Below, piece after piece: positions 14,040-38,019 of a stretch of DNA of 61,377 nt (positions are counted from its first letter, which is position 1; the number at the start of each line of letters is the position of its first letter). The notes beneath the pieces were generated by a model. That model was not told the DNA's origin. It saw only the letters and a program-made list of their open reading frames with translations, and made no database searches. Origin of the DNA: Phycisphaeraceae bacterium (GTDB lineage Bacteria; Planctomycetota; Phycisphaerae; Phycisphaerales; Phycisphaeraceae); NCBI GenBank assembly GCA_029260635.1, contig JAJDCW010000206.1, positions 1 to 61,377 of the forward strand. The letters run 5' to 3'. A program made the translations under genes and the position numbers.

Positions 14040-14077
14040 CAGAAAACCCATCTGAAAGCACCCAATCCACTCACGCC

Positions 14078-14211: not shown

Positions 14212-14236
14212 CATGTTAAATGGAAAGGCTGCGCCT

Positions 14237-17400: not shown

Positions 17401-17411
17401 GAGTGCACGCC

Positions 17412-21280: not shown

Positions 21281-22632
21281 GGCGTGGCCTTCTTGGGTAT
21301 GACGTTGTAATCCACGGGGGCATCCCGGTCATAAGCTTTCCGCTGATGGCAGCCGGGCGTACACGATCCGCCGGTGTCGGTCTGCTGATAGTTGATAGGT
21401 AGCTCCCACTTGCCGTAGGGCACGGTCTCACGCAGGTGCAGCGCAAGCGTGCTGGCGTGCACACTGTGGCAGGCGCGGCAGCTGCGACCGCGTGTGTCCT
21501 TGTTGACATGGAGGTAGTGCATGTTCGTGTCGCCGTTGCGGAATCCGGTCAGCCCCTGAGCGTTGGGCGTCAGCACGAGCTGCTGCTCGTGACATTGGAA
21601 GCATAGTTTGTAACTATCGATATCAAATGCCTGGTAAAACGTCGCCGGGTATTCATCCGTGAGAAGTTTCACATAATCCGATCCGTGAACGTTATGACAG
21701 CCACCACAACTGCCCTCCGAGACCGGGCCGTGCTTAACTAATGCCGGGTCGGTGATCTCGGAGACTGCCGCGACAGTCCGTCCGTCGCTTGCCGTAACCG
21801 GATTATTGTGGCAGGTCATACAGATATCTACGGGCGTATCCTTCATCAGGGTGGCGAGGTCCCCGCCGTGAGGCGTGTGGCAATTCACACATCCCTTGTC
21901 TTGCATGACCGCCGAATGTTGATGCTTCGCTTCCGTCACCGCCTGCTTGACTTCCTCGTGGCACGAAGCGCAGAGCGTGCCGGGCGCATCATTAACGATC
22001 ATCGGGAAGTTGGAGCCATGCGCATCGTGGCAGCTCAGGCAGTCGTCGAGCACGGGTTCGTGTACGAATGCAACCGTCAGAAGCTGCTCGTCCATCTCGG
22101 TATGACATGTGATGCATAAGTCCCGGCCGGTTTCAACCAGCAGCTTGGGGTTCGCCGAGGCGTGGGCCTCGTGACACATCCCGCAGGCACCGGCGGCCAC
22201 CGGGCCGTGGATATACTGCATGTTCGCGGTCACGTCCTGATGGCAGGATGAGCAGAGCTCATTCATTGTCGGCTGCTTCAGTGAGTTGCGATCAAATCCA
22301 CCGTGCGGGTCGTGGCAACCCGTGCAATCGCGCGCGACCAACGGCTCGTGCAACTTAGAGCCCTCGGGTATATCGATCACGTGGCAAAAAGTGCAGGTAT
22401 CCGCCGGCTCGCGAGCGGGTTTGTAGGTGTGTGTCTGTACATCGACCAGCGTGTGACAAGCGTCGCAGGCGTTGACATTGACCGGGCCGTGCACAACATT
22501 GTGGTTCTTAACGTTAGCGTGGCACTCCGCGGTGACACAGCCATCGGGTTTGATCTCGGTGGTGGGTTTGTCAACACCCAAGCAGATGGAGGTCAATACC
22601 ACAACAAGGCTGACGGCTACAAAGTGTTTCAT
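21277..22632 (-). CDS. Multihaem (13 CxxCH plus CX4CH and CX3CH) c-type cytochrome
   Basis: 451 residues with a cleavable signal peptide. The mature protein starts with GCVTAECH (CX4CH), then thirteen CxxCH motifs, and ends in GGSCTPGCHQRKAY (CX3CH), for up to 15 haems. The repeating unit is about 30 residues with HGPV spacers and DPHGG/EAHAS tails. It is a close paralogue of the neighbouring lipoprotein at 22629: both share the CX4CH start, the HYLHVNK/HYLHVNR segment before the last CxxCH, and a PIN(Y/F)xxTDxGGSC-xPGCH end. It probably diffuses in the periplasm and links the inner-membrane oxidoreductases to the outer-membrane conduit. Both ends overlap neighbours by four bases (ATGA). Confidence 0.92.
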   Translation of the reverse strand: MKHFVAVSLVVVLTSICLGVDKPTTEIKPDGCVTAECHANVKNHNVVHGPVNVNACDACHTLVDVQTHTYKPAREPADTCTFCHVIDIPEGSKLHEPLVARDCTGCHDPHGGFDRNSLKQPTMNELCSSCHQDVTANMQYIHGPVAAGACGMCHEAHASANPKLLVETGRDLCITCHTEMDEQLLTVAFVHEPVLDDCLSCHDAHGSNFPMIVNDAPGTLCASCHEEVKQAVTEAKHQHSAVMQDKGCVNCHTPHGGDLATLMKDTPVDICMTCHNNPVTASDGRTVAAVSEITDPALVKHGPVSEGSCGGCHNVHGSDYVKLLTDEYPATFYQAFDIDSYKLCFQCHEQQLVLTPNAQGLTGFRNGDTNMHYLHVNKDTRGRSCRACHSVHASTLALHLRETVPYGKWELPINYQQTDTGGSCTPGCHQRKAYDRDAPVDYNVIPKKATP

Positions 22633-24227
22633 AATGGACCCTCCTGTGAGGACTCGTCATCTGAAGGTTCTGGACTATCCGATAGGCTACGGGAATAGGC
22701 GCGGGCTTCGTGGCACCCCGGCGAGCAACTACCGCCGTTGTCCGTCCGACTAAAGTTGATCGGCATCGCCCACTGTGACCGCTCGAACGGCACGTCGGAC
22801 GCGATATGATCAGGCCGATCGCTGCCATGGATATCGTGGCACGTCTTACAGGTCCGCCCCTTCTTAGTGCGATTCACATGCAGGTAGTGCAGATTCTGAT
22901 TGCCTTTGCGGAAACCTGTCAGGCTGTCTGTGTTCTCAATTAGCACCAGGTCATCGCTGTGGCAACTGAAACACAAAGCGTAATTGCTCAACTCGAATCC
23001 GGCATAGAAGGTATCTGGGAAACGATTGACAAGCAGACGGGCGTTTTCACCACCGTGCACGTTGTGACACGCCGAGCAATCTCCCGCGCGGACCGGCCCG
23101 TGGAGGTACTTACGGTTTAGTGTCGGTTGCATGTCGGGGATTACACGCCCGTCGGCGGTTTCGACCGGCTGGTTGTGACAACGCATGCAAAGATTATCCG
23201 TCCGATCTTTCAGCAGAGCCTGTCCGCCTGCCGCATGTGGGTCGTGACAGTTGGCGCAGCCGTCCTCGATGAACAACGCGTCGTGGGAAACGGGTTGGGA
23301 CGCTACCTGTTCGGCCATCTGCTCGTGACAGGTAAAGCAACTCTCAGCTACCGGGGCGGCTAACTGGTAAGGGTACTCGCTGGTATGTGCCTCGTGACAC
23401 GTCGTGCAATCCTTCTTCGCCGGCTCATGCACGACGGGTGAATTTGCCATGCGGGTCTGAATCCCGGTGTGGCAGCTGAAGCAGTGATCCGGCTGGTCGC
23501 CCTGTCGAAGCAGGTTGCCGGCGTTGGCTTCATGCGGCTGATGGCAAACGGTGCATTGACCCGCGGCGAAAGGCCCGTGGGCGTACTTCTTAAGTGGCGT
23601 CTCATGGCAAGACGCGCATAATTGCTCAACCGAAGGCTGGTTGAGCAGGAACTTGACATCGGACCGGTGTGGATCGTGGCAGGCCACGCAGCCGTTGTCT
23701 TCGATCGCCGCGTGCTCATGCGCACGGGCCCCCACCACCGGATGGCAGAACAGGCAGGTCTGATTACCCGCCCGCTTCATTGGGTAAACATGCACCCCGG
23801 TGTCGGCATCGTGGCAGGATTCACAGTTCGCGACCGCAACCGGGCCATGGATGTGCTTGGCGTCAACCAGTGAGAGGTGGCAGCCGGGCGTGATACAGGA
23901 AGCGTCCGGCGGCAGTATCGAATCCGGCTTGGGCAGGGGCTCGATGTGCCCATCCCGTTTAGAGGCTATCAAGATAGACCGGCCGACCGGCGTATCCGCA
24001 TCATCGCTAACGTCTGAGTTCTCATAATGCCCCATCGATGCTGACGCGGTCGACTCAACCCCCGTTTGCGCAGATTCAGCCTGCACATCAGGTTCAGATG
24101 GTTCGTGACCACAACCCAGAAGTATCACTAACAACAGGGTGCACAGACACCCCCCACCAAGGCCCCATGCAATATCGGACCGGCTGGATGGACCCGCTCG
24201 CGGATTGGCTTGCGCACAGGTCATCAC
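22629..24227 (-). CDS. Multihaem (13 CxxCH plus CX4CH and CX3CH) cytochrome lipoprotein
   Basis: 532 residues: a hydrophobic segment ending in ILLGC (lipobox, Cys39), a linker of about 80 acidic residues, then SCITPGCH (CX4CH), thirteen CxxCH motifs and a terminal GGSCSPGCHEARAY (CX3CH), for up to 15 haems. It shares architecture and the C-terminal region with the soluble protein at 21277, so one arose from the other by tandem duplication and gain or loss of a lipid anchor. It is probably anchored to the inner or outer membrane leaflet facing the periplasm. Its start overlaps the NapC-type gene stop by four bases. Confidence 0.92.
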   Translation of the reverse strand: MMTCAQANPRAGPSSRSDIAWGLGGGCLCTLLLVILLGCGHEPSEPDVQAESAQTGVESTASASMGHYENSDVSDDADTPVGRSILIASKRDGHIEPLPKPDSILPPDASCITPGCHLSLVDAKHIHGPVAVANCESCHDADTGVHVYPMKRAGNQTCLFCHPVVGARAHEHAAIEDNGCVACHDPHRSDVKFLLNQPSVEQLCASCHETPLKKYAHGPFAAGQCTVCHQPHEANAGNLLRQGDQPDHCFSCHTGIQTRMANSPVVHEPAKKDCTTCHEAHTSEYPYQLAAPVAESCFTCHEQMAEQVASQPVSHDALFIEDGCANCHDPHAAGGQALLKDRTDNLCMRCHNQPVETADGRVIPDMQPTLNRKYLHGPVRAGDCSACHNVHGGENARLLVNRFPDTFYAGFELSNYALCFSCHSDDLVLIENTDSLTGFRKGNQNLHYLHVNRTKKGRTCKTCHDIHGSDRPDHIASDVPFERSQWAMPINFSRTDNGGSCSPGCHEARAYSRSLSDSPEPSDDESSQEGPL

Positions 24228-25765
24228 ATCACCCCGGCTGTATTTTTGATATCGATCTTGGGTGCATCCTTAATCGACTCTAACACGTTCTTATAATGAT
24301 CAATCGCCACATTCAATAAGGCCGTGGCGTAGGTAACGTTGTGGACACCGTGCCCCAGCTTGACCAGCCGAAGGTTGTGGTCGGCGTCATCAATACGCCT
24401 CTGGAGTTCCAACATCTTTTCAGGTGTCACGGCTGTAGTGAGCATCGCCTCCGCACACTCCGCTTGCATTTTCTCTACATATGAAAGGTGTTCCTGGATG
24501 GTGTCGCGCCATTCATCGAGCACACCGCCGTAGTGAGAGTCGTGGCACATATCACATGCGGTCTGTGCCGCGGTGTAAGTTTGCCCGGTGACCTGCGCGA
24601 TCTCGCTGGTGAATTCACGCTGCTGATGGCACGCGGCACAATCGACCTGTGCGGTGAACATGGGGCTGGGCATATCTGGAACACCCCGCCCGCCGACCCC
24701 GCTGTAAAGTTCGGCTGGCCCGTTATGAGTCATGTCGTGGCAACTCGCACAGGTGCCCTGATCGCCACTGCCATGAGCGCCCGGCATGAGGCTGCCGGAC
24801 GAGGCTAAACCAGCTGTCAGGTGGTGTACGATCTGGATATGACAGCTCGAGCACTCGACCTTGTTCGCGGAGATATGCACCTCGTGCATCTTGCTCGACT
24901 CGCCGTAGCGGGCGATCTGTTCAGGCTGGTTGTGGCACGTCCAGCAGAACTGCTTCGGCACAGCGCCGTCGCCTGAGACCGCATCGATATGACAGTTCTC
25001 GCACTTCACGCCTCTTTCTATGTAGTCCATGTGGTTGAAGGTGCCTGTTGCGAGTTGGATATCGCTGGCCGGTGCGTCATGGCAGGACCGGCATCCACCC
25101 AGTGTCTCGTCGTCACGACCGTGCTGCAGCCCCTTGAAGTGACAGAGGAAGCAGGTATCCAGGGTTACCACCAGGTGCTGGCCCTGCACGATCTGTGAAT
25201 GGCATGACACGCAACGCAGCTGCTTGCCCCGCCGAAGCTCTGTCAGGTGCGGCGTGTGATCAAACTTGATCGTGATCTCCGTACCGCGCTGTGTCTGGAT
25301 CGGCCAATCGACACTGCCTTCAAGCAGTCTCTGCTCGTGACAACCTTCCCGCATACAAGACGCATCACGGATCTCGGCGTGTGGTTTTGAGCCGTAAGTG
25401 TTGGTGATATATTTAGCCGCCTGGCTGGAGGCCTCCCACTTGCCGCGGATGGTGTTCTCAAGCCCGGGCTCGAAGTGGCAGCTAATGCAAGATACGTCCT
25501 TGTGTGTCGAATCGTGCCACGCCTGATAGTACGGCTCCATGATGTGACATGACCGACAGAAGTCCGGCTGCATCGAGTACTCAACAAAACCGGCCGAACC
25601 GATCCCCAGCGCGATCAGCACCAGCAAAACCCAGCCCCACCGGCTGGGAATGTAACGCAACCGCTTGCCTTCACGCCGACGCAGACCAACCCAACGCATC
25701 CACCCCCTGCGAGGCCTGAGCTGCGCCGTGTCGCCACTGGTTTGTTTTGAATCGCCATCGCTCAT
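24224..25765 (-). CDS. NapC/NirT-type membrane-anchored multihaem cytochrome c
   Basis: 513 residues. A cytoplasmic Arg-rich N-terminus and one TM helix (about residues 44-62) precede FCRSCHIMEPYYQAWHDSTHKDVSCISCH, the start of a NapC/NirT quinol-dehydrogenase-like domain. It has eleven CxxCH motifs and one CX4CH (CMREGCH), up to 12 haems, far more than the four of classic NapC. A C-terminal helical tail of about 90 residues (HLSYVEKMQAECAEAMLTT.., with HNVTYATALLNVAIDHYKN) resembles the helices of NrfA/ONR-type cytochromes. I expect it to take electrons from menaquinol, or return them, and pass them to the 15-haem cytochromes. It lies ten bases after the CbcL-like gene. Confidence 0.9.
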   Translation of the reverse strand: MSDGDSKQTSGDTAQLRPRRGWMRWVGLRRREGKRLRYIPSRWGWVLLVLIALGIGSAGFVEYSMQPDFCRSCHIMEPYYQAWHDSTHKDVSCISCHFEPGLENTIRGKWEASSQAAKYITNTYGSKPHAEIRDASCMREGCHEQRLLEGSVDWPIQTQRGTEITIKFDHTPHLTELRRGKQLRCVSCHSQIVQGQHLVVTLDTCFLCHFKGLQHGRDDETLGGCRSCHDAPASDIQLATGTFNHMDYIERGVKCENCHIDAVSGDGAVPKQFCWTCHNQPEQIARYGESSKMHEVHISANKVECSSCHIQIVHHLTAGLASSGSLMPGAHGSGDQGTCASCHDMTHNGPAELYSGVGGRGVPDMPSPMFTAQVDCAACHQQREFTSEIAQVTGQTYTAAQTACDMCHDSHYGGVLDEWRDTIQEHLSYVEKMQAECAEAMLTTAVTPEKMLELQRRIDDADHNLRLVKLGHGVHNVTYATALLNVAIDHYKNVLESIKDAPKIDIKNTAGVM

Positions 25766-25775
25766 AACCGTTCTC

Positions 25776-28025
25776 CTAGAGCAGCCCCAGACCTGCCAAC
25801 ACGATCAACAGGACCATCGAGAGCCCTATCGCCATCGCTGATACGCCCACGATCACCGACACAGTCCGTGCCCACTTCGGCGGCGATTTCACACGCAGCG
25901 ACTCCAGCTCGCCGCTCTGCTTCAGCCGTTGGTACTCCGCGGGCCGTTCGTGCCGCAGTTCGTCCTCAGACACGACGCCCGTGAAGATCACATCATCTAC
26001 CGGGAATTTCTCCGGCCTTAGGTTGGCGTTAAAGAAGTGAATCGTGAAGATAAACCCCGCCGCCAACAACGCCTCGTAGCCATGCACGATCGTGGCGATA
26101 TTGAAAGACCACCCCGGGATCATGGTCGAGACCAGGCCCGGGAACCAGAGCATCAGCCCGGTCCCGCCGATGATGAAGGTCCCTGCAATCTCGGCCCAGT
26201 AGTCGAACTTCTCCCAGTAGGTCCACCGGTCAAACGCCGGTTTCCCCCGCCCCGTGAGGAACCAACGAAACATCCCCAGGCAATCGGTAACGTCCTTCCA
26301 GCGTGGAAGCAGTGTGTAGGGGCCGGTCAGCAAGGTCTTGGCCGGTTGCTTGCGGAAACGTTTGTATATACCAACGAAGTGCACGATGAAGTTGATCATC
26401 AGCACGACCGCAAAGACCCGGTGCCAGAGCCCCGCCGCATCCACGCCCCCCATCGCTTTCGCGAGAGCTTTGGCCCAGTCCTGATCGGAGAACAATAAAG
26501 GCATCCCGGTCAGCGTCAGTCCGAAGAACGTGATCGCCACAAACGCATGATTCACGCGGTTGATCTTTCGGAAGCGCTTCACCGAGTAGCCCTGTGCCTT
26601 GGTGTGCGGCTTAACCGTCCGTGTGGCGTGTCGTTTCTTCTCGATCAGGGAGCGGACCAGCCACAGCAACGAGTGGAGGCCATAAAACCCAAAGGTCATG
26701 CTCATAAGGACGATAAAGTAGGTCCAGACGCCCGCCAAGAGTGGATAGTTTTCCCAATCACGGAAGTCTGCGTGTGGCATGAACTGGGCGAACTTGGGGT
26801 TCGATTCCTCGTGACATTCACCGCAGGTAGCCACAATATTGTCCGTGTGTATCCGAGAAGCCGGATCACTGGCGGGCAATACTTCGTGGGCACCGTGGCA
26901 GTCACTACACCGTGCCGAGCGTGCGGACCCCAGTTCATTGACCTGCCCGTGGTAGCTCATCCGGTAGGTGTCGTAGAACGATCGAGCAGTTCCATCCTCC
27001 TTGGCCATCCGATCGTGGCACTGCCCACACTCCCCGATGATGTCCCGCATGAATCCGGGCGTACCCGCATGGGTGATCGCGTGCGCGGCGTGGCAGTCGC
27101 TACAGACCGGGGCGTCCGGGTCGCCCGCCGCGAGCTTCTGACCATGGATACTTAGTGCGTACACCTCCTGGATACCCCGGTGGCACTGCCCGCAGGTTTC
27201 GGGGGTCTGTGACCGGTGGACCGGTGAGTTTTCGTCACGACTTGGCCGCACGGCGTGACCATCGTGGCAATCCACGCAGGTGGCCGCAACGATCAATCCG
27301 GCTTCACGTACCGCTTTGCCGTGCACGCTCTCCATATAACTAAGCACGTATTCGGTCTCGTCGTAGCCGTTGGTGGTCGACTCATGGTGCTTGCTGTGAC
27401 AGTCGCCGCACAACTTGATCACATTAAGCGGGTACAGATTCGAACGGCGATCGGTGGACGGATAGATGTCGTGCCCACCGTGGCAGGTCGCACACGTCGG
27501 AGCCCGATCATCACCGGCAGCGACGGCCTCGGCATGGATACCCCGACGGTATTGAACCGCGGATAAATCGTGGCAGGACGCTGTGCAGTTCACTTGACTC
27601 AGGTTGATCGCATGCGGCAGAGTCTCCGCGTCTTGGTGACACTCCGTACACGCCAGCGCATCGTGAGGCCCGTCCAGCAAAGCATCCGGAGCAACGAAAA
27701 GCCCCGGGCGTGCCTCGGGTTCACGATCAAGCAATAACCGACCCTGTGAAGGCGCGACCATCGATCGACGCTCCGAAACCGACAGATTGGTGATGTGGTG
27801 CTGCCCGTGGCAGTTGTAACAACGATTGTTCTGCACCTGTGCTGGCGTCATTTCGACCGCATACACATCGGCGTAAGCCCACCCCACACTCAGTATGAAG
27901 ATAACCAACAGTCGCGTGAACCACTGAACCATGAAAGCACTCGATATAGCCAATCCGGATCTTTGATCGATGATCCTTGGATCGATCCTGTTCATCCCCA
28001 CCGGCTTCCCTGTCGGACCGGGCAT
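25776..28025 (-). CDS. CbcL-like fusion: multihaem cytochrome c with C-terminal di-haem cytochrome b
   Basis: 749 residues. After an N-terminal hydrophobic signal/anchor (about residues 35-52) there is a periplasmic domain with ten CxxCH motifs and one CX3CH (CTASCH), interspersed with SVHGK, SIHGQ and SYHGQ loops. From about residue 435 it becomes an integral membrane domain with cytochrome b561/HydC/FdnI-like helices carrying candidate haem b ligands (NHAFVAITFFG, HRVFAVVLMINFIVHFVG, HGYEALLAAGFIFTIHFF). This is the architecture of Geobacter CbcL, an inner-membrane quinone oxidoreductase used at low potential in metal reduction. It heads the five-gene operon. The start at 28025 has AAGGTGAGG seven bases upstream. 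The sigma54 promoter match lies about 80 bases further up. Confidence 0.9.
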   Translation of the reverse strand: MPGPTGKPVGMNRIDPRIIDQRSGLAISSAFMVQWFTRLLVIFILSVGWAYADVYAVEMTPAQVQNNRCYNCHGQHHITNLSVSERRSMVAPSQGRLLLDREPEARPGLFVAPDALLDGPHDALACTECHQDAETLPHAINLSQVNCTASCHDLSAVQYRRGIHAEAVAAGDDRAPTCATCHGGHDIYPSTDRRSNLYPLNVIKLCGDCHSKHHESTTNGYDETEYVLSYMESVHGKAVREAGLIVAATCVDCHDGHAVRPSRDENSPVHRSQTPETCGQCHRGIQEVYALSIHGQKLAAGDPDAPVCSDCHAAHAITHAGTPGFMRDIIGECGQCHDRMAKEDGTARSFYDTYRMSYHGQVNELGSARSARCSDCHGAHEVLPASDPASRIHTDNIVATCGECHEESNPKFAQFMPHADFRDWENYPLLAGVWTYFIVLMSMTFGFYGLHSLLWLVRSLIEKKRHATRTVKPHTKAQGYSVKRFRKINRVNHAFVAITFFGLTLTGMPLLFSDQDWAKALAKAMGGVDAAGLWHRVFAVVLMINFIVHFVGIYKRFRKQPAKTLLTGPYTLLPRWKDVTDCLGMFRWFLTGRGKPAFDRWTYWEKFDYWAEIAGTFIIGGTGLMLWFPGLVSTMIPGWSFNIATIVHGYEALLAAGFIFTIHFFNANLRPEKFPVDDVIFTGVVSEDELRHERPAEYQRLKQSGELESLRVKSPPKWARTVSVIVGVSAMAIGLSMVLLIVLAGLGLL

Positions 28026-28106: not shown

Positions 28107-28122
28107 TGCATACGGCGTGCCA
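28107..28122 (-). promoter_or_regulatory. Sigma54 (-24/-12) promoter match for the CbcL-like operon
   Basis: On the minus strand this reads TGGCACGCCGTATGCA: a perfect -24 TGGCACG and a -12 ATGCA (one mismatch), with GG-N10-GC spacing. Predicted start near 28096, about 70 bases before the ATG at 28025. Confidence 0.65.
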
Positions 28123-28171
28123 GCCGTAATCGCCATAAAGTCTTCTATACAATAATGTTAATACTGAAGAA

Positions 28172-28185
28172 TCTCAGTATTGAGA
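28172..28185. promoter_or_regulatory. Candidate enhancer site TCTCA-N4-TGAGA (copy 3)
   Basis: TCTCAGTATTGAGA, embedded in a wider symmetry (GAATCTCA / TGAGAATG) and partly overlapping another inverted repeat, AATACTGA-N6-TCAGTATT (28160-28181). It lies about 50-60 bases upstream of the -24 element of the sigma54 match and just downstream of the kinase gene's stop. Confidence 0.6.
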
Positions 28186-28222: not shown

Positions 28223-29533
28223 TTACACCCGCCGGCTGATCGGCAGGTGGATTGTCGCGGTCACGCCCCGGCCGGGTCTGTTATCAAACTCGATGCGACC
28301 GCCTTGGCTGTGGATCAGGCTGTAACTGATCGCCAGCCCCAAGCCGGTCCCCTTGCCGACGGGTTTGGTCGTAAAGAAGGGCTCGAAAAGGCGGTCCATG
28401 TGTTTTGGATCGATCCCCGGGCCGTTGTCCGCGATCCATATCCGGCACATCTGGCCGTTGCACGCCGTACCGATCTGCAACCGGGGGTCGGGCGTTTCAT
28501 GGTCATCCAAGGCATCCAAGGCGTTGAACAAGAGATTAGTCAACACCTGTTGCAACGCGTGCGGCTGAACCTCAATCACCTCATTGCCCGCCGACAGCTG
28601 CTTGTCGATCGTCACTTTACGCTGCCGATGGTCGAACCGGACCATCTGCAGGGCCGAGTCCACCACTTGATTAATCGGGATGCTTTCCCATTGGTAATCG
28701 GTGGGATGCGCAAAGTCGGTCAGCTGGTGTACGGTCTGCTTGATCCGCTGAACCTGTTGCCTCAGGGCGTCGAGGTTCGCAGGTTTAATGTGCTTGTCGT
28801 TACGCTGCATCAGTTGCAAGACGCTATCCATACTGGCCAACGGATTCGCGACCTCGTGCGCCACACCCGCCGCCATCTGCCCCAGCCCCACCATCTTCTC
28901 CTGCTGGATCATCGCCTGCTGCTGCCGCCGAAGCCGGCGCACGAGCGCACGGACGCGTTGGTTTTTAGCCATCAGATGCGATCGGTTACGCCGCAGGGCC
29001 GAGGTGATGTGGTTGGCCAGGAAGATCGTAACCAGCAGTGTGAACGCCCATCCCATCAGCACGAGCCGGGACCCGCTGTCTTGCGGCCATTCACCGCTTA
29101 ACGAAAGTAATCCTGCAAACATGGCCCCTGTCACCAACGCCACGCCGTAGGCTTGCAGCGGGCGGAACAGCAGACTGGTAAACACCATGTGAAAGACAAA
29201 AAAGCCTAACAAAGGGCTCTGTGCGCCACCGGTCCATACCGCCAATACCGCGAGACACGCCAGGTCCGGAATAACATGAAGCCAAACCAGTGAGGGCGGC
29301 GCATCACGCCCACCCATACGACTCCGCAATCGTGAACGTAATAACAGATTGTACGCAAGGATCACGATACCGATCAGGACCATCCACGGCGCGTTCTCGT
29401 GCCACCTCATCCAGAGGTTGTCAACAGCCGAGATCAGGATCACCGCCGATCCGGCGATCCAGCGCAATCGTACAAGCCAATGGACTTGCTGAATCAGGAC
29501 ACGCCGGTTGTGGACCGAAAGATTATCGACCAT
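28223..29533 (-). CDS. NtrB-like membrane sensor histidine kinase
   Basis: 436 residues. The N-terminal half is a membrane domain of five or six TM helices without a sizeable periplasmic sensor. A coiled-coil linker leads to the DHp helix MAAGVAHEVANPLASM with phosphoacceptor His226. A complete HATPase follows (N box LLFNALDAL, G1 IWIADNGPGID, F box FEPFFTTK, G2 GTGLGLAIS). It is the third gene of a minus-strand operon after the PhnD-like and HAMP proteins. Orthodox kinases of this class phosphorylate NtrC-family regulators; the obvious partner is the regulator at 32266. Its input may come through protein contact with the two upstream gene products. Confidence 0.9.
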   Translation of the reverse strand: MVDNLSVHNRRVLIQQVHWLVRLRWIAGSAVILISAVDNLWMRWHENAPWMVLIGIVILAYNLLLRSRLRSRMGGRDAPPSLVWLHVIPDLACLAVLAVWTGGAQSPLLGFFVFHMVFTSLLFRPLQAYGVALVTGAMFAGLLSLSGEWPQDSGSRLVLMGWAFTLLVTIFLANHITSALRRNRSHLMAKNQRVRALVRRLRRQQQAMIQQEKMVGLGQMAAGVAHEVANPLASMDSVLQLMQRNDKHIKPANLDALRQQVQRIKQTVHQLTDFAHPTDYQWESIPINQVVDSALQMVRFDHRQRKVTIDKQLSAGNEVIEVQPHALQQVLTNLLFNALDALDDHETPDPRLQIGTACNGQMCRIWIADNGPGIDPKHMDRLFEPFFTTKPVGKGTGLGLAISYSLIHSQGGRIEFDNRPGRGVTATIHLPISRRV

Positions 29534-29557
29534 GCTTAAAATACCCGCCCGTATGCA

Positions 29558-30601
29558 TCATGAACCCGCCACAGCTTCCGGCCCTTGTTCCCGGATCGAT
29601 TCATTTAGGTCTAACATCTTAACGCCGTCGACATAATCAGTCAGCACAACCCGCTTAAGCTGCTTCAAAGACGCGATGACCTCAGACATCCGCTGGAGGT
29701 TCTCCTGGATCTGCCCCAGCCCCTTGTGTACGGCCTCGTCGCGACCCGACCTGCGACGCAGAAGTGTCAGTTGGAGGTTGATCGTGGTGATCGCGTTATT
29801 TAACTCGTGATTCAGTGTCAACGCGGTCTGCTGCAGCGTCTGGATCCGGCGTCGTTCGTTCTCCTGAAGCTGTTCCGCCAGGTGATTATACGCCCTGGCT
29901 AGTTCGTCGAACTCATCGGCCTGCCCCAGCGTAACACGGTGCCCGAAGTTTTCTCGGGCCAGTTCTCGACTAGCAAATACCAGCTTGTCTACAGGCCTTA
30001 GAATCATCCCCGCTGTCCGAAGCATCATCAGGATCGAGGTGTTGATCACAACCAGGAAGCCCAACGCGATCGACACAACCAGCCAGCGGAATCGCCCGTT
30101 GATCTCGGTTTGCTCGTTGCGGGTATGGGCCTGGACATGGCGTGCAATCAAGATTAAATCCTGATGCATCTGCGCGGCACGGTCCAGACACGCCAGGTTA
30201 TATCGCAGGGATAAATCACGATCGTTGGCGGTTGCCAACACACCGACCAGCGATTCGAATCCACCAAGGCGTGTCATAAACTGCTCGTATGTCGGCATTA
30301 TCTCCGGCTCCAGCACAACGTAGTGCTCGTCCAACTCATCCGCCGCTAAGTGGATCGATTCAATCTCATCGACCAGCCGATCCAGATGCCGTTGCCTGCC
30401 TGTCTGAAGCGCGTACAACTCGACTTCAATTGTGGACAGGCTCGTGTTCAGTTCGTTGACATGATCGACCGCCGTAGATGCGGTGCGCAGGTGATCAAGA
30501 TCGACGAAGACGCGTTGCAATGACCACAGGGCCGCCACCGCCAAAACCATGAGTAGAGCGGTCAACGCCAACAGGATCACCATTAATTTACGACGGAGCA
30601 T
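29558..30601 (-). CDS. HAMP-domain membrane protein with DHp-like helix but no ATPase domain
   Basis: 347 residues: TM1 at about 7-28, a periplasmic helical domain of about 140 residues (four-helix-bundle style, like chemoreceptor or NarX sensor modules), TM2 at about 172-195, and a HAMP domain at about 196-250. Then comes a DHp-like segment LTLNHELNNAITTINLQLTL with His265. The protein ends about 80 residues later without any HATPase motif. It looks like a split sensor: it could be phosphorylated by, or dimerise with, the complete kinase encoded 24 bases downstream, or relay a periplasmic signal to it. The start at 30601 has GGAGG about eight bases upstream and lies just after the stop of the binding-protein gene. 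Confidence 0.85.
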   Translation of the reverse strand: MLRRKLMVILLALTALLMVLAVAALWSLQRVFVDLDHLRTASTAVDHVNELNTSLSTIEVELYALQTGRQRHLDRLVDEIESIHLAADELDEHYVVLEPEIMPTYEQFMTRLGGFESLVGVLATANDRDLSLRYNLACLDRAAQMHQDLILIARHVQAHTRNEQTEINGRFRWLVVSIALGFLVVINTSILMMLRTAGMILRPVDKLVFASRELARENFGHRVTLGQADEFDELARAYNHLAEQLQENERRRIQTLQQTALTLNHELNNAITTINLQLTLLRRRSGRDEAVHKGLGQIQENLQRMSEVIASLKQLKRVVLTDYVDGVKMLDLNESIREQGPEAVAGS

Positions 30602-30602
30602 G

Positions 30603-31622
30603 CTAAGGACCCTCCGCCTGAGACGTGGCATCCGTGGCGTCGGTCGATGCCGGGTCAGCCATGAAAACCTGCGGAGCGGATAGGCCGATGTTCCCCCAGC
30701 CCGGGCCTAGTTGTTCGGTCATGTCATACACGGCCTGATACTCGTCGGATTGACACGGTAGAAATCGGGCGGCCCCGAAAACCGACAAAACTTTTTGGCC
30801 GGACTCGTGCTGGTCCATCTCAAGCAACACCCGCGTCAATTCCTTTATCAACGACTCATCCATATCATTACGGACCAGAAGCGCATTATTGGGCACGGGA
30901 TCGCCAAGAGCCAACCGGCGGAAGTGAGTCATCGGGTGCTGCTTCTCGTAGGCGTCGATCCTCAGGTCTTTCGCGGCACCTACAGCGATCCTGCCAAGAT
31001 CGACTTCCTGAATCACCTGATCGTGTGTTCCCACCCAGCGCATGGCGACCGCATCCTCTCCAGACAACAGGCCATACTCGCTTAGTCTGAATATCGGGAA
31101 CAGGTGCCCCGCAGTTGTCGTGCGGACCATCGCGATGGATTGGCCGGCCAAGTCTTCCAGGTTACGGATCGGCGAATCATCACGGACAAAGATGACCCCT
31201 CGATAGGTGCTAACACCGTCGGTTGTCTGTGGCTTGACCAGTACCCGGGCCCGTACCATCTCCAGGGTCAGGGCGGCGACCATGGACCCCATAAAGGCGG
31301 CATCGGTCCGGTCCTCAGCCATGTCATTCAGCGCCCCGTGGTAGGTACTGGAGGTCACCAGCGTAACCCGCCTATCTAGTTCCCCAGTTAGGTATTCGGC
31401 CAGGACCTCGTAGCGCCGCCGCTGCTCGAAGATGTCTCGTTCGGGGATGAGTCCTAATCTCAATGGCGCGGCATCGGACTGAGAGATTGCCTGGGCCGAG
31501 GTACCGTTGGCGGTCACTACATCCGGTTCAATCCCCAACCAAACCAGCATGACTATTAATAGCACGAGCAGGGTTACGCTTAATATCGTTTCTGAGATTT
31601 TCATACGGCCCATGGGCATCAT
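30603..31622 (-). CDS. PhnD-like periplasmic binding protein (sensor-associated)
   Basis: 339 residues with an N-terminal hydrophobic anchor or signal (about residues 12-30), then a type II periplasmic binding fold of the phosphate/phosphonate (PhnD) class. Features seen are LRLGLIPERDIFEQRRRYEVLAEYL, the TDAAFMGSMVAA segment, FVRDDSPIRNLEDLAGQSIAM and a conserved GTHDQVIQEV. No ABC permease or ATPase is nearby. Instead it starts an operon with a HAMP protein and a histidine kinase, so it probably presents an unknown ligand to the sensor. Several Met codons compete for the start; AGGAG precedes the first two. Confidence 0.85.
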   Translation of the reverse strand: MMPMGRMKISETILSVTLLVLLIVMLVWLGIEPDVVTANGTSAQAISQSDAAPLRLGLIPERDIFEQRRRYEVLAEYLTGELDRRVTLVTSSTYHGALNDMAEDRTDAAFMGSMVAALTLEMVRARVLVKPQTTDGVSTYRGVIFVRDDSPIRNLEDLAGQSIAMVRTTTAGHLFPIFRLSEYGLLSGEDAVAMRWVGTHDQVIQEVDLGRIAVGAAKDLRIDAYEKQHPMTHFRRLALGDPVPNNALLVRNDMDESLIKELTRVLLEMDQHESGQKVLSVFGAARFLPCQSDEYQAVYDMTEQLGPGWGNIGLSAPQVFMADPASTDATDATSQAEGP

Positions 31623-31780: not shown

Positions 31781-32164
31781 ATGAACATCCCATGCCGCCC
31801 CCTTATTCAATACAACCCAAGGGTGCTAAAAGACCTTCTTTTGCTCATAAAATTCGTCGAGGTTTATTGTCACAGCCACCATGCCGACAGGTCAGACCGA
31901 AAAGACGTAGATCTGAAAACTCATGATATCAAAGAACTTACGGGAAAGAATGTTTGCTTGTGCCCCGATTGTAGGAAGCTATTGGCACACGCATTGGTAA
32001 AACGGACCGTCTGCCCGATGCAGCCCAAACCGTCATGCAAACATTGTCCCAGGCATTGCTACCACCCTAAATACCGCCAGCAGATCCGTGATGTCATGAA
32101 GTACTCCGGGCGAAAACTCGTCATGCATGGACGTGTGGATTACTTGCTCCATTTACTTTTCTAG
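31781..32164 (+). CDS. YgbA-family (nitrous-oxide-stimulated promoter family) protein
   Basis: 127 residues. The family signature is seen as a Cys-rich block: CLCPDCRKLLAHALVKRTVC, then KPSCKHCPRHCYHPKYRQQI and RDVMKYSGRKLVMHGRV. E. coli YgbA belongs to this family, is controlled by the nitric-oxide sensor NsrR, and helps recovery from nitrosative stress. The conserved cysteines probably bind a metal or iron-sulfur cluster. AGGTGA lies about six bases before the ATG. It stands between the divergent sensor operon and the regulator gene, so nitric oxide or iron stress may be linked to the regulatory module; this is inference. Confidence 0.85.
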   Translation: MNIPCRPLIQYNPRVLKDLLLLIKFVEVYCHSHHADRSDRKDVDLKTHDIKELTGKNVCLCPDCRKLLAHALVKRTVCPMQPKPSCKHCPRHCYHPKYRQQIRDVMKYSGRKLVMHGRVDYLLHLLF

Positions 32165-32265: not shown

Positions 32266-33633
32266 ATGAACAAATCGATCCTGATTGTTGAAGACGAAGA
32301 GGTACTACGCCAGAGCCTCGCCGAACTGCTTAGCGATGAGGGCTACGAAGTCCACCAGGCATGCGACGGCAAGGAAGCCTACGACTACATCCTCAAGCAA
32401 TCCGTTGATCTGGTTCTATCTGATATACGCATGCCCAACATGGATGGCATCGAACTGCTGGGTAAACTTCAGCAGGCAGCGCCTCAGACCCCGGTCATCA
32501 TCCTCACCGCCTACGGCACCGTGGAGAGTGCCGTTGCCGCCATGCGCAGCGGGGCCCACGACTACCTTCTCAAACCCATTAATTTCGATGATGTCTTGCT
32601 TAAAGTCGAGCGTGCCATCGAGTTTGGCGAACTGACTCAGACCCAGCGTGTCATCACCGACCAACTCGCCGAGGGCAGTACGTTTCATAATATGGTGGGT
32701 GAAGCCCAGAACATGGCCAAGCTCTTTGAGATGGTCAAGAAACTCGCCACGGTGAAGACGAGTGTGTTGATCGTCGGCGAATCTGGCACTGGCAAAGAAC
32801 TCTTCGCCCGAGCGGTCCATTACAACGGCATCACGCGAGACAAGCCCTTCGTCGCTGTCAACTGTGGTGCGATCCCCGACAACCTGATCGAGTCGGAACT
32901 GTTCGGATACCGTCGAGGCGCGTTTACCGGCGCGATCCGTGACAAGAAAGGTTACTTCGAGGCGGCCCACCACGGCACACTGTTTCTCGATGAGATCTCC
33001 ACACTACCCGTAAGCGTGCAGAGCTCTCTGCTTCGTGCACTCGAGCAACGCGTCGTCGTTCCGGTAGGTGACACCCAGCCAAGGCCAGTCGATGTCCGCA
33101 TCATCGCGGCAAGCAACCGCGACCTGAAGACTATGGTTGCTAATGACGAATTCCGAGAGGACTTGCTGTATCGGCTGGATGTCGTGAAGCTTGAGTTGCC
33201 CCCTCTGCGCCAGCGTAAAGAAGACATCCCCGGGCTGGTCCATCACTTCCTGAACAAGTACACCAGCCAGATGAACAAGCACGTCCTGGGCATCACCAAC
33301 GACGCGATGCGTGCGATGCTCGCCCATGAATGGCGTGGCAATGTCCGCGAGTTGGAAAACGTGATTGAACGGGCTGTAATCTTCGCCGAAGACCGCCACA
33401 TCGAGTCCGAAGACCTGCCCTTCGCGATCCCGGGCATGACACACGACGATTCCGAGAGCCTTAAAGAAGCCATGCGCCAGTTCGAGCGCCATCACATCAT
33501 CTACTGCTTGCGCCGGCACGACTTCGATAAGACCGAGGCCGCCAAGCATCTGGACATCGGCGTATCCAGCCTCTACCGCAAACTGGAAGAGCTAAACATC
33601 CCCAAGAAAGTCCAAGAAGAAGACCCCGTATAG
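32266..33633 (+). CDS. NtrC-family sigma54-dependent response regulator
   Basis: 455 residues in the classic three domains. The receiver has phosphoacceptor Asp53 in LSDIRMP. The AAA+ domain (about 140-375) has Walker A GESGTGKE at 171-178, the sigma54-contacting loop GAFTGA at 218-223, Walker B GTLFLDEI and an R-finger region ILYRLDVVKL-like segment. A Fis-type HTH is at the C-terminus (DKTEAAKHLDIGVSSLYRKLEEL). The GAFTGA loop means it can activate sigma54 promoters. ATG 32266 begins the receiver directly; in-frame codons upstream to 32203 would add a non-conserved extension. Its likely kinase is encoded at 28223, and its likely targets are the four -24/-12 promoters in this window. Confidence 0.93.
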   Translation: MNKSILIVEDEEVLRQSLAELLSDEGYEVHQACDGKEAYDYILKQSVDLVLSDIRMPNMDGIELLGKLQQAAPQTPVIILTAYGTVESAVAAMRSGAHDYLLKPINFDDVLLKVERAIEFGELTQTQRVITDQLAEGSTFHNMVGEAQNMAKLFEMVKKLATVKTSVLIVGESGTGKELFARAVHYNGITRDKPFVAVNCGAIPDNLIESELFGYRRGAFTGAIRDKKGYFEAAHHGTLFLDEISTLPVSVQSSLLRALEQRVVVPVGDTQPRPVDVRIIAASNRDLKTMVANDEFREDLLYRLDVVKLELPPLRQRKEDIPGLVHHFLNKYTSQMNKHVLGITNDAMRAMLAHEWRGNVRELENVIERAVIFAEDRHIESEDLPFAIPGMTHDDSESLKEAMRQFERHHIIYCLRRHDFDKTEAAKHLDIGVSSLYRKLEELNIPKKVQEEDPV

Positions 33634-34829: not shown

Positions 34830-35414
34830 ATGGCTTTGATCGACCACAAAGATGAATCCGCCGTCGTATCTATTAAGAAGTATCCCAACCGGCGGTACTA
34901 CGACTCCTCTCAGAGCCGACATGTAACGCTGGAGGATATCCACAAGATGATCCGCGCGGGGCGGCGGATTCAGGTGACAGACTCTAAGACCGATACGGAT
35001 ATCACCAGCCGGGTGCTCGCCCAGATTATCCTTGAAATGGACAGCCTCAAGCTCGGCATGTTCCCCAGCCCGCTGCTGCACAAACTGATTCAATCGAACG
35101 AATTAATCGTTCAGGAGTTTGTCGAACTCTATTTTAATAGGGCATTAGACTGGTTTCTGTCATCGCGTGAAGTTTACGAGGACCACTTCCGTCGTGCCAT
35201 GGGCTTGGGAACCCAGGGGCCCGCCGAGGCCCCGGATGGGTCTTTACCGCATCCTATGAAGGCGACCCCCCCGCCGCTTCCCCTGACGGACACAAACACG
35301 ATACTTAGGCCGTCTCCGCAGGCCGAAGACCTGCACAACCGGGTTGAGCAGCTGAGCAAGCGAGTCGAGTCACTGCAGACCCAGTTGCACTCCGCCCGGG
35401 CTGACAAGGCCTGA
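34830..35414 (+). CDS. phaR: Polyhydroxyalkanoate synthesis repressor PhaR
   Basis: 194 residues. The N-terminal PHA_accum/DNA-binding region is clear: IKKYPNRRYYDSSQSRHVTL and IHKMIRAGRRIQVTDSKTDTDITSRVL, followed by a second conserved segment (LLHKLIQSNELIVQEFVELYFNRALDWF). The C-terminus is a Pro-rich linker and a short coiled coil (LHNRVEQLSKRVESLQTQLHSA). PhaR binds both DNA and nascent PHA granules and represses phasin and PHA genes until polymer is made. It lies upstream of the phasin gene; a matching inverted repeat lies between them. Confidence 0.92.
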   Translation: MALIDHKDESAVVSIKKYPNRRYYDSSQSRHVTLEDIHKMIRAGRRIQVTDSKTDTDITSRVLAQIILEMDSLKLGMFPSPLLHKLIQSNELIVQEFVELYFNRALDWFLSSREVYEDHFRRAMGLGTQGPAEAPDGSLPHPMKATPPPLPLTDTNTILRPSPQAEDLHNRVEQLSKRVESLQTQLHSARADKA

Positions 35415-35463
35415 AATCTTGAAGTTTTTGTGCCTTAATCCATTGCCCAGGCTTGGGTAAGGT

Positions 35464-35482
35464 CCGCTGGACATGCCAGCGG
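35464..35482. terminator. Hairpin after phaR, possible weak terminator
   Basis: CCGCTGG and CCAGCGG form a perfect 7-bp stem with a 5-base loop, 50 bases after the phaR stop. No T-run follows, so termination would be weak or Rho-assisted. Confidence 0.35.
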
Positions 35483-35511
35483 GATTATGCACCGTGAATA
35501 CACATCTAAAG

Positions 35512-35531
35512 TTTTGTGCTTTCGCACAAAA
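35512..35531. promoter_or_regulatory. Candidate PhaR operator upstream of the phasin gene
   Basis: TTTTGTGCTTTCGCACAAAA is a perfect 8-bp inverted repeat with a 4-base spacer. The right half reads GCACAAAATTAG, which agrees at 11 of 12 positions with the PhaR site GCAMMAAWTMMD described for Ralstonia eutropha, as I recall it. It lies about 110 bases before the phasin ATG, where PhaR repression would be expected. Confidence 0.5.
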
Positions 35532-35640
35532 TTAGCTTGCGATTTCTTTTAAGATCGATTAGTCTTATGTTGTTGTGTCCGTGGCATTCGTTTCAGCCAG
35601 TTGACCACCTTCTAGAACGGGAATGAAAGGCAGGTGCACG

Positions 35641-36099
35641 ATGTCGGGTAACGCTCATGACCGGATGATCGAACTGTTGGACGAGGCGGGACAGGCCTAC
35701 TTCAATACCATGAAGACCGGCCTGAAGGTGCAGGAGGACGTCACCAGTTGGTGGACGGATCAAGTCACCTCAGTCAATGGCTCCGCCGATTGGACCAAGA
35801 AGCTTAAAGTGGTTTTAACCCAAGCTATCAGTCAGTGGCAGGACAATACAGAGAAGTCCCTGAAGCAGATGGAGAAGAACACGCAGCAGAGCATCGATCT
35901 GCTAAACAAGGCTTTCGAGGTCGGGCAGGCGGATTCCATCGAAGCGGCGCAGAAGAAGCTCAACGAGTTATGGGAAACCTCGTTAGACGCGATGCGTTCA
36001 AACGTGCAATCCACACTGAAAGCCAACGCACAGGTCGCGAAAGCATGGATGGAACTGGCTGCAAAGCAGACGGAAGAAGCCACCGCCGCCGCGGAGTAA
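35641..36099 (+). CDS. Phasin-like PHA granule protein
   Basis: About 152 residues, almost entirely helical and amphipathic, without Cys. It has a phasin-style central region (WQDNTEKSLKQMEKNTQQSIDLLNKAFEVGQ) and a LWETSLDAMRSNVQSTLKANAQVAKAWMELA segment, ending in an Ala/Glu-rich tail. Phasins coat PHA granules and control their size. AGG is about eight bases before ATG 35641; an earlier ATG at 35623 has no good site. Placed between phaR and phaA. Family identity rests on composition, length and neighbours more than on strong motifs. Confidence 0.75.
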   Translation: MSGNAHDRMIELLDEAGQAYFNTMKTGLKVQEDVTSWWTDQVTSVNGSADWTKKLKVVLTQAISQWQDNTEKSLKQMEKNTQQSIDLLNKAFEVGQADSIEAAQKKLNELWETSLDAMRSNVQSTLKANAQVAKAWMELAAKQTEEATAAAE

Positions 36100-36264
36100 C
36101 TCAGCCAAAGGGCGGGCGATCGGGATATGTTGATCCAGGCTTCATGCAATGCATGCGTGATCGGTAGGATCAGGGTTCACCGTTTAATGTCCGCACGGCG
36201 GCTATGACTACGCACGCAATCGTGTGGTGCAATCGGCAGGTCCCGATCATTCAGAGAGTCCAGC

Positions 36265-37443
36265 ATGCTCAAGCAGGTGTTCATAGGTGGAGCGGTGCGT
36301 ACACCGATCGGTCGCTTCGGCGGGGCGTTCGCCGATGTCCCTGCCGCCGAACTCGGTGCCGTGGCCATCCGCGAGTCTCTCGCACGCCTCAGAGCCCAGC
36401 CACAGGAGGTCGACGAGGTGGTCATGGGCAATGTCATCGGCGCCGGGCTGGGCCAGAACGTGTCACGCCAGTCTTCCATCGCTGCGGGCCTGCCGACCGA
36501 GGTACCCGCCGTGACCGTCAATAAGGTCTGTGGCTCGGGCCTTAAGGCCGTGATGATGGCGGCTCAGTACATCCAGTGTGGCGATGCCGAGCTTGTCGTG
36601 GCCGGTGGGATGGAGAACATGACCCGCGCCCCCTACCTGCTTCAGCAGGCGCGAAATGGCTACCGTATGGGTGACGGCAAGGTCATCGACAGTCTCGTCC
36701 ACGACGGGCTGTGGGACACCTACGGCGATATACACATGGGCTTCCTAGGTGACCGCTGCGCCACCGAACGCAGCCTCTCGCGCAAGAAGCAGGACGACTT
36801 CGCCGTGGCGAGTTACCAACGTGCCCGAGCGGCACAAGCGGAAGGCGCATTCAAAGACGAGATCACGGCTGTCGAGGTGAAGCGAAAGAAACTGACCGAG
36901 AACATTACCGAGGACGAAGAGCCTCAACGCTTCGACGAGGATAAACTCCGCTCGCTACGACCGGCGTTTGATAAGGATGGGACGGTGACCGCTGGCAACG
37001 CCTCCAGCGTTAACGACGGTGCCGCGGTGCTGACGGTATTCTCCGAGCGTAAAGCCCATCAACTGGGGGTTCAGCCCGAGGCCCGGATTCTTGGCTACAG
37101 CGGGATGTCGCGGGACCCCAAGTGGTTCACACTCGCCCCGATCCGCGGCATCCGGTCATTGATGCGCAAGCTTGAACTGACCGTAAACGACGTGGACCTG
37201 TTCGAGATCAATGAGGCGTTTTCATGTGTCCCTCTCGCAGCCATGGAAGAGTTGGGGATCCCCCACGAGAAGGTCAACGTGCTGGGCGGAGCTGTCGCTC
37301 TGGGCCATCCGATCGGTGCCAGCGGCTCCCGGATTCTAGTCACGCTGTTGAATGCCTTGAAACGTCGAAACGGGAAGATCGGCCTCGCCGCGTTGTGTAT
37401 CGGTGGGGGCGAGTCGGTCGTGATGGCTGTGGAACGGATGTAA
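36265..37443 (+). CDS. phaA: Acetyl-CoA acetyltransferase (thiolase) PhaA
   Basis: Biosynthetic thiolase that condenses two acetyl-CoA to acetoacetyl-CoA, the first step of polyhydroxybutyrate synthesis. 392 residues, as expected. The acyl-accepting Cys89 lies in NKVCGSGLKAV, His348 in GGAVALGHPIGASGSR, and the second catalytic Cys378 in LCIGGGE. The INEAFSCVPLAAM motif is also present. It is followed by the phaE-like gene after 22 bases, so phaA, phaE-like and phaC are probably one transcript. Confidence 0.95.
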   Translation: MLKQVFIGGAVRTPIGRFGGAFADVPAAELGAVAIRESLARLRAQPQEVDEVVMGNVIGAGLGQNVSRQSSIAAGLPTEVPAVTVNKVCGSGLKAVMMAAQYIQCGDAELVVAGGMENMTRAPYLLQQARNGYRMGDGKVIDSLVHDGLWDTYGDIHMGFLGDRCATERSLSRKKQDDFAVASYQRARAAQAEGAFKDEITAVEVKRKKLTENITEDEEPQRFDEDKLRSLRPAFDKDGTVTAGNASSVNDGAAVLTVFSERKAHQLGVQPEARILGYSGMSRDPKWFTLAPIRGIRSLMRKLELTVNDVDLFEINEAFSCVPLAAMEELGIPHEKVNVLGGAVALGHPIGASGSRILVTLLNALKRRNGKIGLAALCIGGGESVVMAVERM

Positions 37444-37465
37444 AAATCAATCTAGAGGATTTACA

Positions 37466-37999
37466 ATGAAGGATACAACCGCAACCGATGGCCCGGCGGC
37501 CAAGCTGTTCAACGATAGTGCCGAGGCGTTTACAAAGATGTGGTCAGACTTCGCGACCAAGGCGGCTTCCAACGGGTTCACCCTCCCCCAGAACCAATCG
37601 CCCGCCGATGCCGCCAAGCAGATGCGTGACACTTTCTTCGCCGCCTGGTCTGATGCCTGCGAGCGGTACATGCGTTCATCCGAGTTTCAACAGATGATGC
37701 GTGACACCATGAAGATGGCCATCGAAATGCGCCAGCAGATGAACCAGCAGATGGGCGAAATGCAGCACGCTATGCAGGGTGCGACCCGCCAGGATATGGA
37801 TCATCTGATGCGGAGTGTCGAGAACCTTGATGGCCGATTCGCCGAGACCTACGAGCAGTTGGTGGACTGCCTCGAAGCCGTCAGCACCCGGCTCGACGAT
37901 TTGGAACGCCATGATCATAAACATAAAATGCCCAAGGCCGGTGCCTCAGCCAAACAAAAATCAAGCCCCAAGCAACGAACGAAGAAGAAACCGCTTTGA
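37466..37999 (+). CDS. Short PhaE-like class III PHA synthase subunit
   Basis: 177 residues, helical and Met/Gln-rich (SSEFQQMMRDTMKMAIEMRQQ, NQQMGEMQHAM), with a segment GRFAETYEQLVDCLEAVSTRLDDLERH like the end of PhaE proteins, then a basic tail (KQKSSPKQRTKKKP). It lies 20 bases upstream of a class III-type phaC, the normal place for phaE. PhaE is usually about 300-360 residues, so this is roughly half size. It could also be a second phasin. It likely binds and activates PhaC or docks it to granules via the basic tail. Confidence 0.65.
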   Translation: MKDTTATDGPAAKLFNDSAEAFTKMWSDFATKAASNGFTLPQNQSPADAAKQMRDTFFAAWSDACERYMRSSEFQQMMRDTMKMAIEMRQQMNQQMGEMQHAMQGATRQDMDHLMRSVENLDGRFAETYEQLVDCLEAVSTRLDDLERHDHKHKMPKAGASAKQKSSPKQRTKKKPL

Positions 38000-38019
38000 T
38001 ACCGGTTGGAGAACTGTAT

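Follow-up and report, generated by a model that had tools for sequence, protein, structure and literature searches.

An ATPase-less HAMP/DHp protein family in a conserved planctomycete signalling cassette, a candidate ligand-gated arm on an NtrC-type putative regulator of cytochrome genes

On a 61,377-nucleotide stretch of DNA from a Phycisphaeraceae bacterium (contig JAJDCW010000206.1 of assembly GCA_029260635.1; this whole stretch is referred to as the window), three genes on the minus strand at 28223–31622 raise the question of how sensing, signal transmission and ATP use are shared out between their products. The genes are arranged as one operon, in which a PhnD-like periplasmic binding protein of 339 residues (30603–31622) is followed, 1 nt after its stop codon, by a 347-residue protein with HAMP and DHp domains (29558–30601) and, 24 nt beyond the stop codon of the latter, by a complete histidine kinase of 436 residues (28223–29533). 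An NtrC-type sigma-54-dependent response regulator (32266–33633, plus strand) is divergent from these three genes, and a cytochrome operon (20261–28025, minus strand) that is its putative target follows downstream of the kinase. An earlier note on this DNA had read the locus as a single kinase split across genes. The HAMP/DHp protein indeed lacks an ATPase domain, and this absence is a trait of its family; the kinase next to it is complete.

The HAMP/DHp protein consists, in this order, of a first transmembrane helix, a periplasmic helical bundle, a second transmembrane helix (TM2), a HAMP domain (residues 196–247), a DHp region (residues ~248–313) and a conserved tail. Pfam recognised HAMP (E=2e-10), HEF_HK just above its cut-off and HisKA (E=7e-6) at 0.5 bit below the Pfam cut-off, and yielded no HATPase match in the window protein. 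The DHp region carries an H-E-x-x-N box (LNHELNN) whose histidine codon lies at 29807–29809 on the minus strand; this residue is His265 when counted from the ATG at 30601, while the longer start of the open reading frame finder would make it 275. The tail motif V-L-T-D-Y-x-x-G-x-K-M-L-D-L (residues 319–335; 29597–29647, minus strand) is predicted to fold into a beta-hairpin and a short helix. The AlphaFold model (pLDDT 82) contained the periplasmic helical bundle, TM2, HAMP, the two DHp helices and the beta-hairpin of the tail, and its best Foldseek matches were sensor-TM-HAMP fragments of NarQ and the HAMP-DHp part of CpxA, with E values of only ~1e-3 to 4e-2, which is usual for helical bundles.

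A homologue of this protein was present in 53 of 400 genomes of the order, a count from which the matches in G411 and G422 were left out because these frames of 499–508 residues resemble ordinary full-length kinases. The profile found an ATPase domain in none of 56 non-redundant homologues; in 34 members scanned with Pfam, HATPase was found in none, HAMP in all 34 and HisKA (PF00512, at 1e-3) in 25. The proteins end ~80–100 residues beyond the histidine. Both this histidine and an Asn or Thr at His+4 were conserved in 56/56 homologues and an acidic residue at His+1 in 53/56, and the tail residues Y323, M329 and D331 were invariant in 34 sequences. Because all 56 non-redundant homologues lack an ATPase domain, its absence is not a truncation but a family trait. 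A frameshifted or truncated kinase was also considered and ruled out, since the frames downstream of the gene hold no ATPase motifs and the 56 homologues stop at the same place. The earlier note had thus described the position, the numbering and the missing domain of this protein correctly. It had also named a role in chemotaxis as a finding that would speak against its reading; a chemoreceptor identity could be rejected, as the MCP signalling domain is absent and HisKA is found instead, with matches of the sensor part to 4HB_MCP_1 or TarH confined to few members.

Proteins with a DHp region and the same tail, ending 70–100 residues after the histidine, occur in many phyla, where they are mostly fused to a receiver. 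Among 32 aligned relatives of this kind, Pfam assigned Response_reg to 25, HisKA to 21 and HATPase to none; the searches were built on the H-box and the tail, so that these shared motifs were partly selected for, whereas the absence of the ATPase domain was not. Such receiver-DHp proteins without an ATPase domain were seen in Zixibacteria, Nitrospirota, Nitrospinota, Chloroflexi, Omnitrophota, Gemmatimonadetes and others (L110–L153), with a Tyr in place of the acidic residue in several of the Chloroflexi proteins; one member of this set (in alignment A7) matches 6TM_PilS and has no receiver. Amin et al. (2013; PMC3591291) counted 1556 proteins without HATPase among 42417 HisKA proteins in SMART, and some of these were proposed to be split bifunctional kinases. 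The class of HATPase-less HisKA proteins was therefore foreseen in that work, which gives no defined family such as the present one, with its conserved tail, its gene context and its partner. A literature search returned no paper on this HAMP/DHp family, on the cassette or on planctomycete cytochrome regulation.

The kinase bears HisKA, with His226, and HATPase_c (1e-22) according to Pfam, and His226 is retained in all 32 aligned kinase homologues, 8 of which have an added PAS domain. A PilS-like six-helix membrane domain (6TM_PilS, PF25323, at 0.01) was recognised in 24 of these 32; the window kinase itself gave no such match, and its membrane part alone matched ActS/PrrB/RegB weakly (E=0.003), with the full-length match falling below the cut-off. 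Given the PilS-like six-helix domain and this weak match, the kinase probably has a membrane input of its own. The earlier note was accurate in calling the kinase complete and devoid of a large periplasmic sensor, and needs correcting in that a PilS-like six-helix membrane domain is present. Matches from a kinase scan of viral contigs were confined to the generic catalytic part.

The order NtrC-PhnD-HAMP/DHp-kinase, with or without PhnD, recurs mostly beside cytochrome genes and is kept over ~50 loci. PhnD stands directly upstream of the HAMP/DHp gene in 21/56 loci, and a kinase follows directly after it in 47/56 loci according to our script, or in 50 when L220, L224 and L094 are included, in which the kinase frame overlaps the HAMP/DHp gene or reaches the contig end. 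In every locus examined, the HAMP/DHp protein and the kinase are separate proteins. Several loci deviate from the complete arrangement. One genome (G692, locus L210) has the kinase and NtrC and no HAMP/DHp gene, and PhnD and HAMP/DHp were found without kinase or NtrC on a short contig (L041/L109). Conversely, G574, G721, G679, G648 and the close relative G695 carry adjoining NtrC and HAMP/DHp genes with no adjacent kinase of this type detected; the genomes likewise yielded no strong match to the kinase membrane domain, in assemblies that are 79–94% complete, so that its absence elsewhere in them is uncertain. At the locus itself the absence could be seen directly in G574, G679 and G648, in which the stretch extends at least 5 kb past the gene. 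In G657, a truncated kinase remnant lies beside PhnD, HAMP/DHp and NtrC. We thus count five genomes whose locus lacks an intact kinase of this type: four from which the gene is absent, and G657 with its remnant.

These data do not fit one kinase split over genes, because the kinase is complete with His226, an ATPase domain and probably its own membrane input, occurs with NtrC and without the HAMP protein in one genome, and is missing in intact form from the locus of five genomes that keep the HAMP protein and NtrC. The broader proposal of the earlier note is supported, in that sensing by PhnD, transmission across the membrane by the HAMP protein and ATP-dependent catalysis by the kinase fall to three polypeptides whose genes stay together. 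After the HAMP/DHp gene of L217 and L218, genes that by eye resemble cytochrome c biogenesis genes (ResB/CcsB-like) stand in place of the missing kinase. The cassette of L105, on a contig titled Vicinamibacteraceae (Acidobacteriota), groups with those of planctomycetes, and this contig was probably mis-binned or the cassette transferred.

The PhnD-like protein matches Phosphonate-bd (PF12974) with E=7e-50 and, judged by its hydropathy, starts with a membrane anchor or signal at about residues 13–31. No ABC transporter genes adjoin its gene, and a search of the genome (assembly 92% complete) for a PhnE-like permease returned a single weak match on another contig, far below the family cut-off. 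A second PhnD-like gene of this genome (L001) was considered as a transporter subunit and rejected, as no permease lies at its short locus and the PhnE search gave nothing beyond the sub-cut-off match elsewhere. The view of the locus protein as a binding protein without a transporter, put forward in the earlier note, therefore holds. By profile, its nearest solved proteins are PtxB, PhnD, ArrX and AioX, and its AlphaFold model (pLDDT 86) had its best TM-score against ArrX (0.87, normalised by ArrX length). Mapping through the ArrX alignment showed conservation of Tyr94, Tyr140, Thr169 and His200 in the oxyanion pocket. We also compared the arsenic-oxyanion pocket in AioX numbering (Tyr88, Cys106, Tyr131, Ser161, Ser163, His192 and Asp210) and found it altered: the position of the arsenite-binding Cys106 is occupied by Gly112, and Asp210 aligns with a conserved Lys218. 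The ligand is accordingly expected from these residues to be a small oxyanion other than arsenite. A cysteine in an RFxPC motif (residue 290 of the PhnD-like protein) was seen in 17/20 PhnD homologues and is absent from ArrX, PtxB and PhnD in the alignments.

Where the binding protein might dock was approached by comparing family members with and without it. The presence of PhnD switches at least 3–4 times on the tree of the HAMP/DHp protein, and PhnD has been lost several times. At equal cytosolic identity (50–60%), HAMP/DHp proteins with PhnD share 27–32% periplasmic identity and those without it 16–18%, a difference that was reached by 0/500 label shuffles, although such shuffles ignore the tree. 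With branch lengths fitted to a single topology, the ratio of periplasmic to cytosolic branch length was 2.1 for PhnD-bearing and 4.6 for PhnD-less branches, and the corresponding tip ratio was raised in every PhnD-less clade (3.9 to 8.6 versus 2.3). The kinase membrane domain underwent only a small shift (0.41 versus 0.35). The extra conservation in the presence of PhnD falls in residues 60–83 and 116–147 of the HAMP/DHp protein, with a p value of 1e-7 that is optimistic because these segments were chosen after the position ranking was known. In the AlphaFold model, loops 68–73 and 125–127 lie at the end of the bundle opposite the two membrane helices, so that residues 60–83 (30353–30424, minus strand) and 116–147 (30161–30256, minus strand), each around one of these membrane-distal loops, are the predicted docking segments. 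Because periplasmic constraint relaxes after PhnD loss and the extra constraint surrounds the predicted distal loops, the HAMP protein, and not the kinase, is the most likely docking partner of PhnD. Two considerations temper this conclusion: members without PhnD cluster on the tree, which leaves few independent losses for the rate comparison, and adaptation of PhnD-less lineages to new ligands could likewise explain a faster periplasmic evolution.

On the output side, the receiver residues D10, E11, D53, T81 and K103 of the NtrC-type regulator are invariant in 25 sequences, and its GAFTGA loop is present. A sigma-54 promoter-like –24/–12 site, TGGCACGCCGTATGCA (28107–28122, minus strand), ends 82 bp upstream of the first cytochrome gene, and an element of this type (at least 10/12 positions, shuffle p of at most 0.02) was found upstream of the next cytochrome gene in 14/21 loci. 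Over the whole window, the sigma-54 pattern was not in excess (22 found versus 30 expected), and the weight of TGGCACGCCGTATGCA therefore rests on its position and conservation; sigma-70 promoters showed no excess over shuffles either. The genome that contains the window has two sigma-54 genes (G000:C204 and G000:C205). The perfect 8+8 palindrome AATACTGA-N6-TCAGTATT (28160–28181), some 50 bp further upstream than the sigma-54 site, is a candidate NtrC binding site that was not found in relatives. The earlier note had tied the signalling genes to electron transfer, and the adjoining NtrC-type regulator together with the conserved sigma-54 promoter does connect them with the cytochrome operon. 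Further sigma-54-like sites were noticed at 14023–14038 (minus strand; TGGAACGGCAGTTGCT), upstream of the likely start of an NHL-repeat lipoprotein gene (12864–13943) that may share the regulon, and at 32036–32051 (minus strand; TGGGACAATGTTTGCA), ~400 bp upstream of PhnD, as a weak hint of possible autoregulation.

Taken together, we tentatively propose, with slightly less than even confidence, a four-protein cassette in which the HAMP/DHp protein acts on NtrC as a ligand-gated phosphatase or phospho-acceptor and the cytochrome operon is under sigma-54 control. The PhnD-like protein, probably loaded with a small oxyanion, would dock on the HAMP protein where its periplasmic bundle is farthest from the membrane, as the evolutionary rates suggest, and the HAMP domain would hand the change on to a DHp helix pair that by its domain content is incapable of using ATP itself. 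The separate six-helix kinase, responding to its own membrane input, would autophosphorylate and then phosphorylate the NtrC-type regulator, as its intact motifs imply. The HAMP/DHp protein would form a second, ligand-gated arm on the same regulator, most likely as a stand-alone receptor phosphatase or a reversible phospho-acceptor for NtrC~P, and NtrC~P would in turn activate the –24/–12 promoter of the cytochrome operon, in line with the conserved site.

For HisKA proteins, Willett and Kirby reported that phosphatase activity alone depends on the Asn or Thr four residues after the histidine, and kinase activity alone on the acidic residue directly after it (PMC3510030). A known precedent is EnvZ, which has phosphatase activity in the absence of its catalytic domain according to the title of Zhu et al. 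(2000; cited in PMC5727384). Direct action of the HAMP/DHp protein on NtrC is thus favoured because every homologue retains the residue for phosphatase activity, 3/56 have lost the one for kinase activity, and HAMP/DHp and NtrC persist without an intact kinase. In its most specific form, the proposal would make the HAMP/DHp protein a stand-alone transmembrane receptor phosphatase, i.e. a DHp dimer gated by a binding protein that never uses ATP and removes or reversibly accepts the phosphate of the regulator, and part of the wider ATPase-less DHp family with its Y-x-x-G-x-x-M-x-D tail, many members of which are receiver-fused, in several phyla; we regard this as possible, but short of probable. 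Some observations count against such direct action. The acidic residue, needless for a pure phosphatase, is kept in 53/56 homologues and, as Asp, in 4/5 genomes that lack an intact kinase; directly after the histidine, the HAMP protein and the kinase have different DHp residues, so that their sequences give no evident sign of a shared docking on NtrC; and the HAMP/DHp gene is present in 47/48 genomes that have the kinase membrane domain, with a Fisher p of 2e-53 that overstates independence (the genomes are related and the genes are neighbours), which also fits a physical complex.

The same retained acidic residue and the near-perfect co-occurrence and adjacency of both genes would suit a heteromeric complex in which the kinase phosphorylates His265 in trans and PhnD gates a second phosphodonor for NtrC. 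This comes closest to the split-kinase idea, and split kinases are known (CheA3/CheA4) and have been proposed for ATPase-less HisKA proteins (PMC3591291), but we consider it doubtful here, as the kinase has His226 in every aligned homologue and so does not need a partner, three homologues without the acidic residue still have the His and Asn, and five genomes combine HAMP/DHp and NtrC with no intact kinase of this type. Adjacency and co-occurrence would equally suit an allosteric subunit that pairs with or packs on the kinase and relays the PhnD signal mechanically, its histidine remaining unphosphorylated, and the related AioX-AioS model, in which the kinase is the target of the binding protein, is in line with this; it nevertheless appears improbable, since the His and the N/T at +4, invariant in 56/56, are needless for a purely structural helix pair and the protein persists where no intact kinase does. 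Least probable to us is that the genes are independent neighbours, with the kinase and NtrC as an ordinary two-component pair and PhnD and HAMP/DHp serving another regulator. Although kinase and NtrC stand alone in one genome (L210), and PhnD and HAMP/DHp lack both on the short contig (L041/L109), the conservation of gene order over ~50 loci, in which NtrC lies beside HAMP/DHp even when the kinase is missing, argues against it.

The proposed ligand-gated action on NtrC invites comparison with known systems. AioR belongs to the NtrC-type regulators. The cassette shares with AioX-AioS-AioR, ArxXSR and ArrXSR a transporter-less PhnD-like binding protein, a histidine kinase and an RpoN promoter on a respiratory operon (PMC5908839), and an NtrC-type regulator with an RpoN promoter at the adjacent respiratory operon is found here as well. 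In those systems, however, the periplasmic domain, DHp and ATPase of the sensor kinase are in one protein, while here the sensor half and the kinase are separate, an extra ATPase-less DHp protein is present, the arsenic pocket is changed and the target is a multi-haem cytochrome operon. The cassette thus resembles AioXSR/ArrXSR with the sensor half turned into a separate ATPase-less DHp receptor, and we do not file it as a member because it has neither the one-protein sensor kinase nor the arsenic pocket.

Some chemoreceptors are known to receive binding proteins at the apex of the bundle. Chemoreceptors and NarX/NarQ share the periplasmic helical bundle, TM2 and HAMP with the HAMP protein, which differs by ending in a DHp region without an MCP domain or an ATPase. 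Spo0B and ChpT are soluble and retain a degenerate ATPase-like domain. They resemble the HAMP/DHp protein in having a DHp-type dimeric helix pair without kinase activity, whereas the latter has no such degenerate domain (for ChpT, see PMC3433190). CheA3/CheA4 of Rhodobacter sphaeroides likewise combine an ATPase-less His protein, bearing phosphatase activity or motif, with a separate ATPase protein (PMC3591291), but their ATPase protein lacks the histidine, while the kinase here is complete and keeps its own in 32/32 homologues; in addition, the domain here is HisKA rather than that of CheA, in a membrane receptor with a binding protein. The HATPase-less HisKA proteins of Amin et al. belong to the same domain class with its HE/DxxN/T motif, in a work that gives a count and no system (PMC3591291). 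PilS/RegB-type six-helix kinases, finally, resemble the kinase through the PilS-like membrane domain of its homologues, but here the kinase is paired with a second receptor.

Within the cytochrome operon, a cytochrome b561/multi-haem gene (25776–28025) is followed by a NapC-type multi-haem gene (24224–25765), two further multi-haem genes (22629–24227 and 21277–22632) and a gene for a TPR protein (20261–21280), all on the minus strand. More multi-haem cytochrome genes, with NHL-repeat and putative outer-membrane barrel genes, occupy 11874–20148 and recurrently adjoin the cassette in relatives. Between PhnD and the NtrC-type regulator lies a YgbA_NO-family gene (31781–32164, plus strand), which is found at the same place beside the cassette in about one third of related loci and hints at a connection with nitric oxide or nitrosative stress. 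Further away, 34830–39117 holds a polyhydroxyalkanoate-like cluster with a PHB accumulation regulator (Pfam) and, by eye, phasin-like, thiolase and synthase-like genes.

In the textbook two-component receptor, one protein senses, dimerises and uses ATP, whereas here sensing through a binding protein falls to one receptor and ATP use to another, a conserved division around a single regulator. Such an arrangement would amount to a two-input switch, and would provide a natural case for the role proposed for ATPase-less HisKA proteins (PMC3591291). Simple mutants of the predicted docking surface and of the H265/E266/N269 box could tell the phosphatase, acceptor and structural models apart, and the cassette may offer a first handle on the control of the large multi-haem cytochrome clusters of mostly uncultured aquatic planctomycetes.

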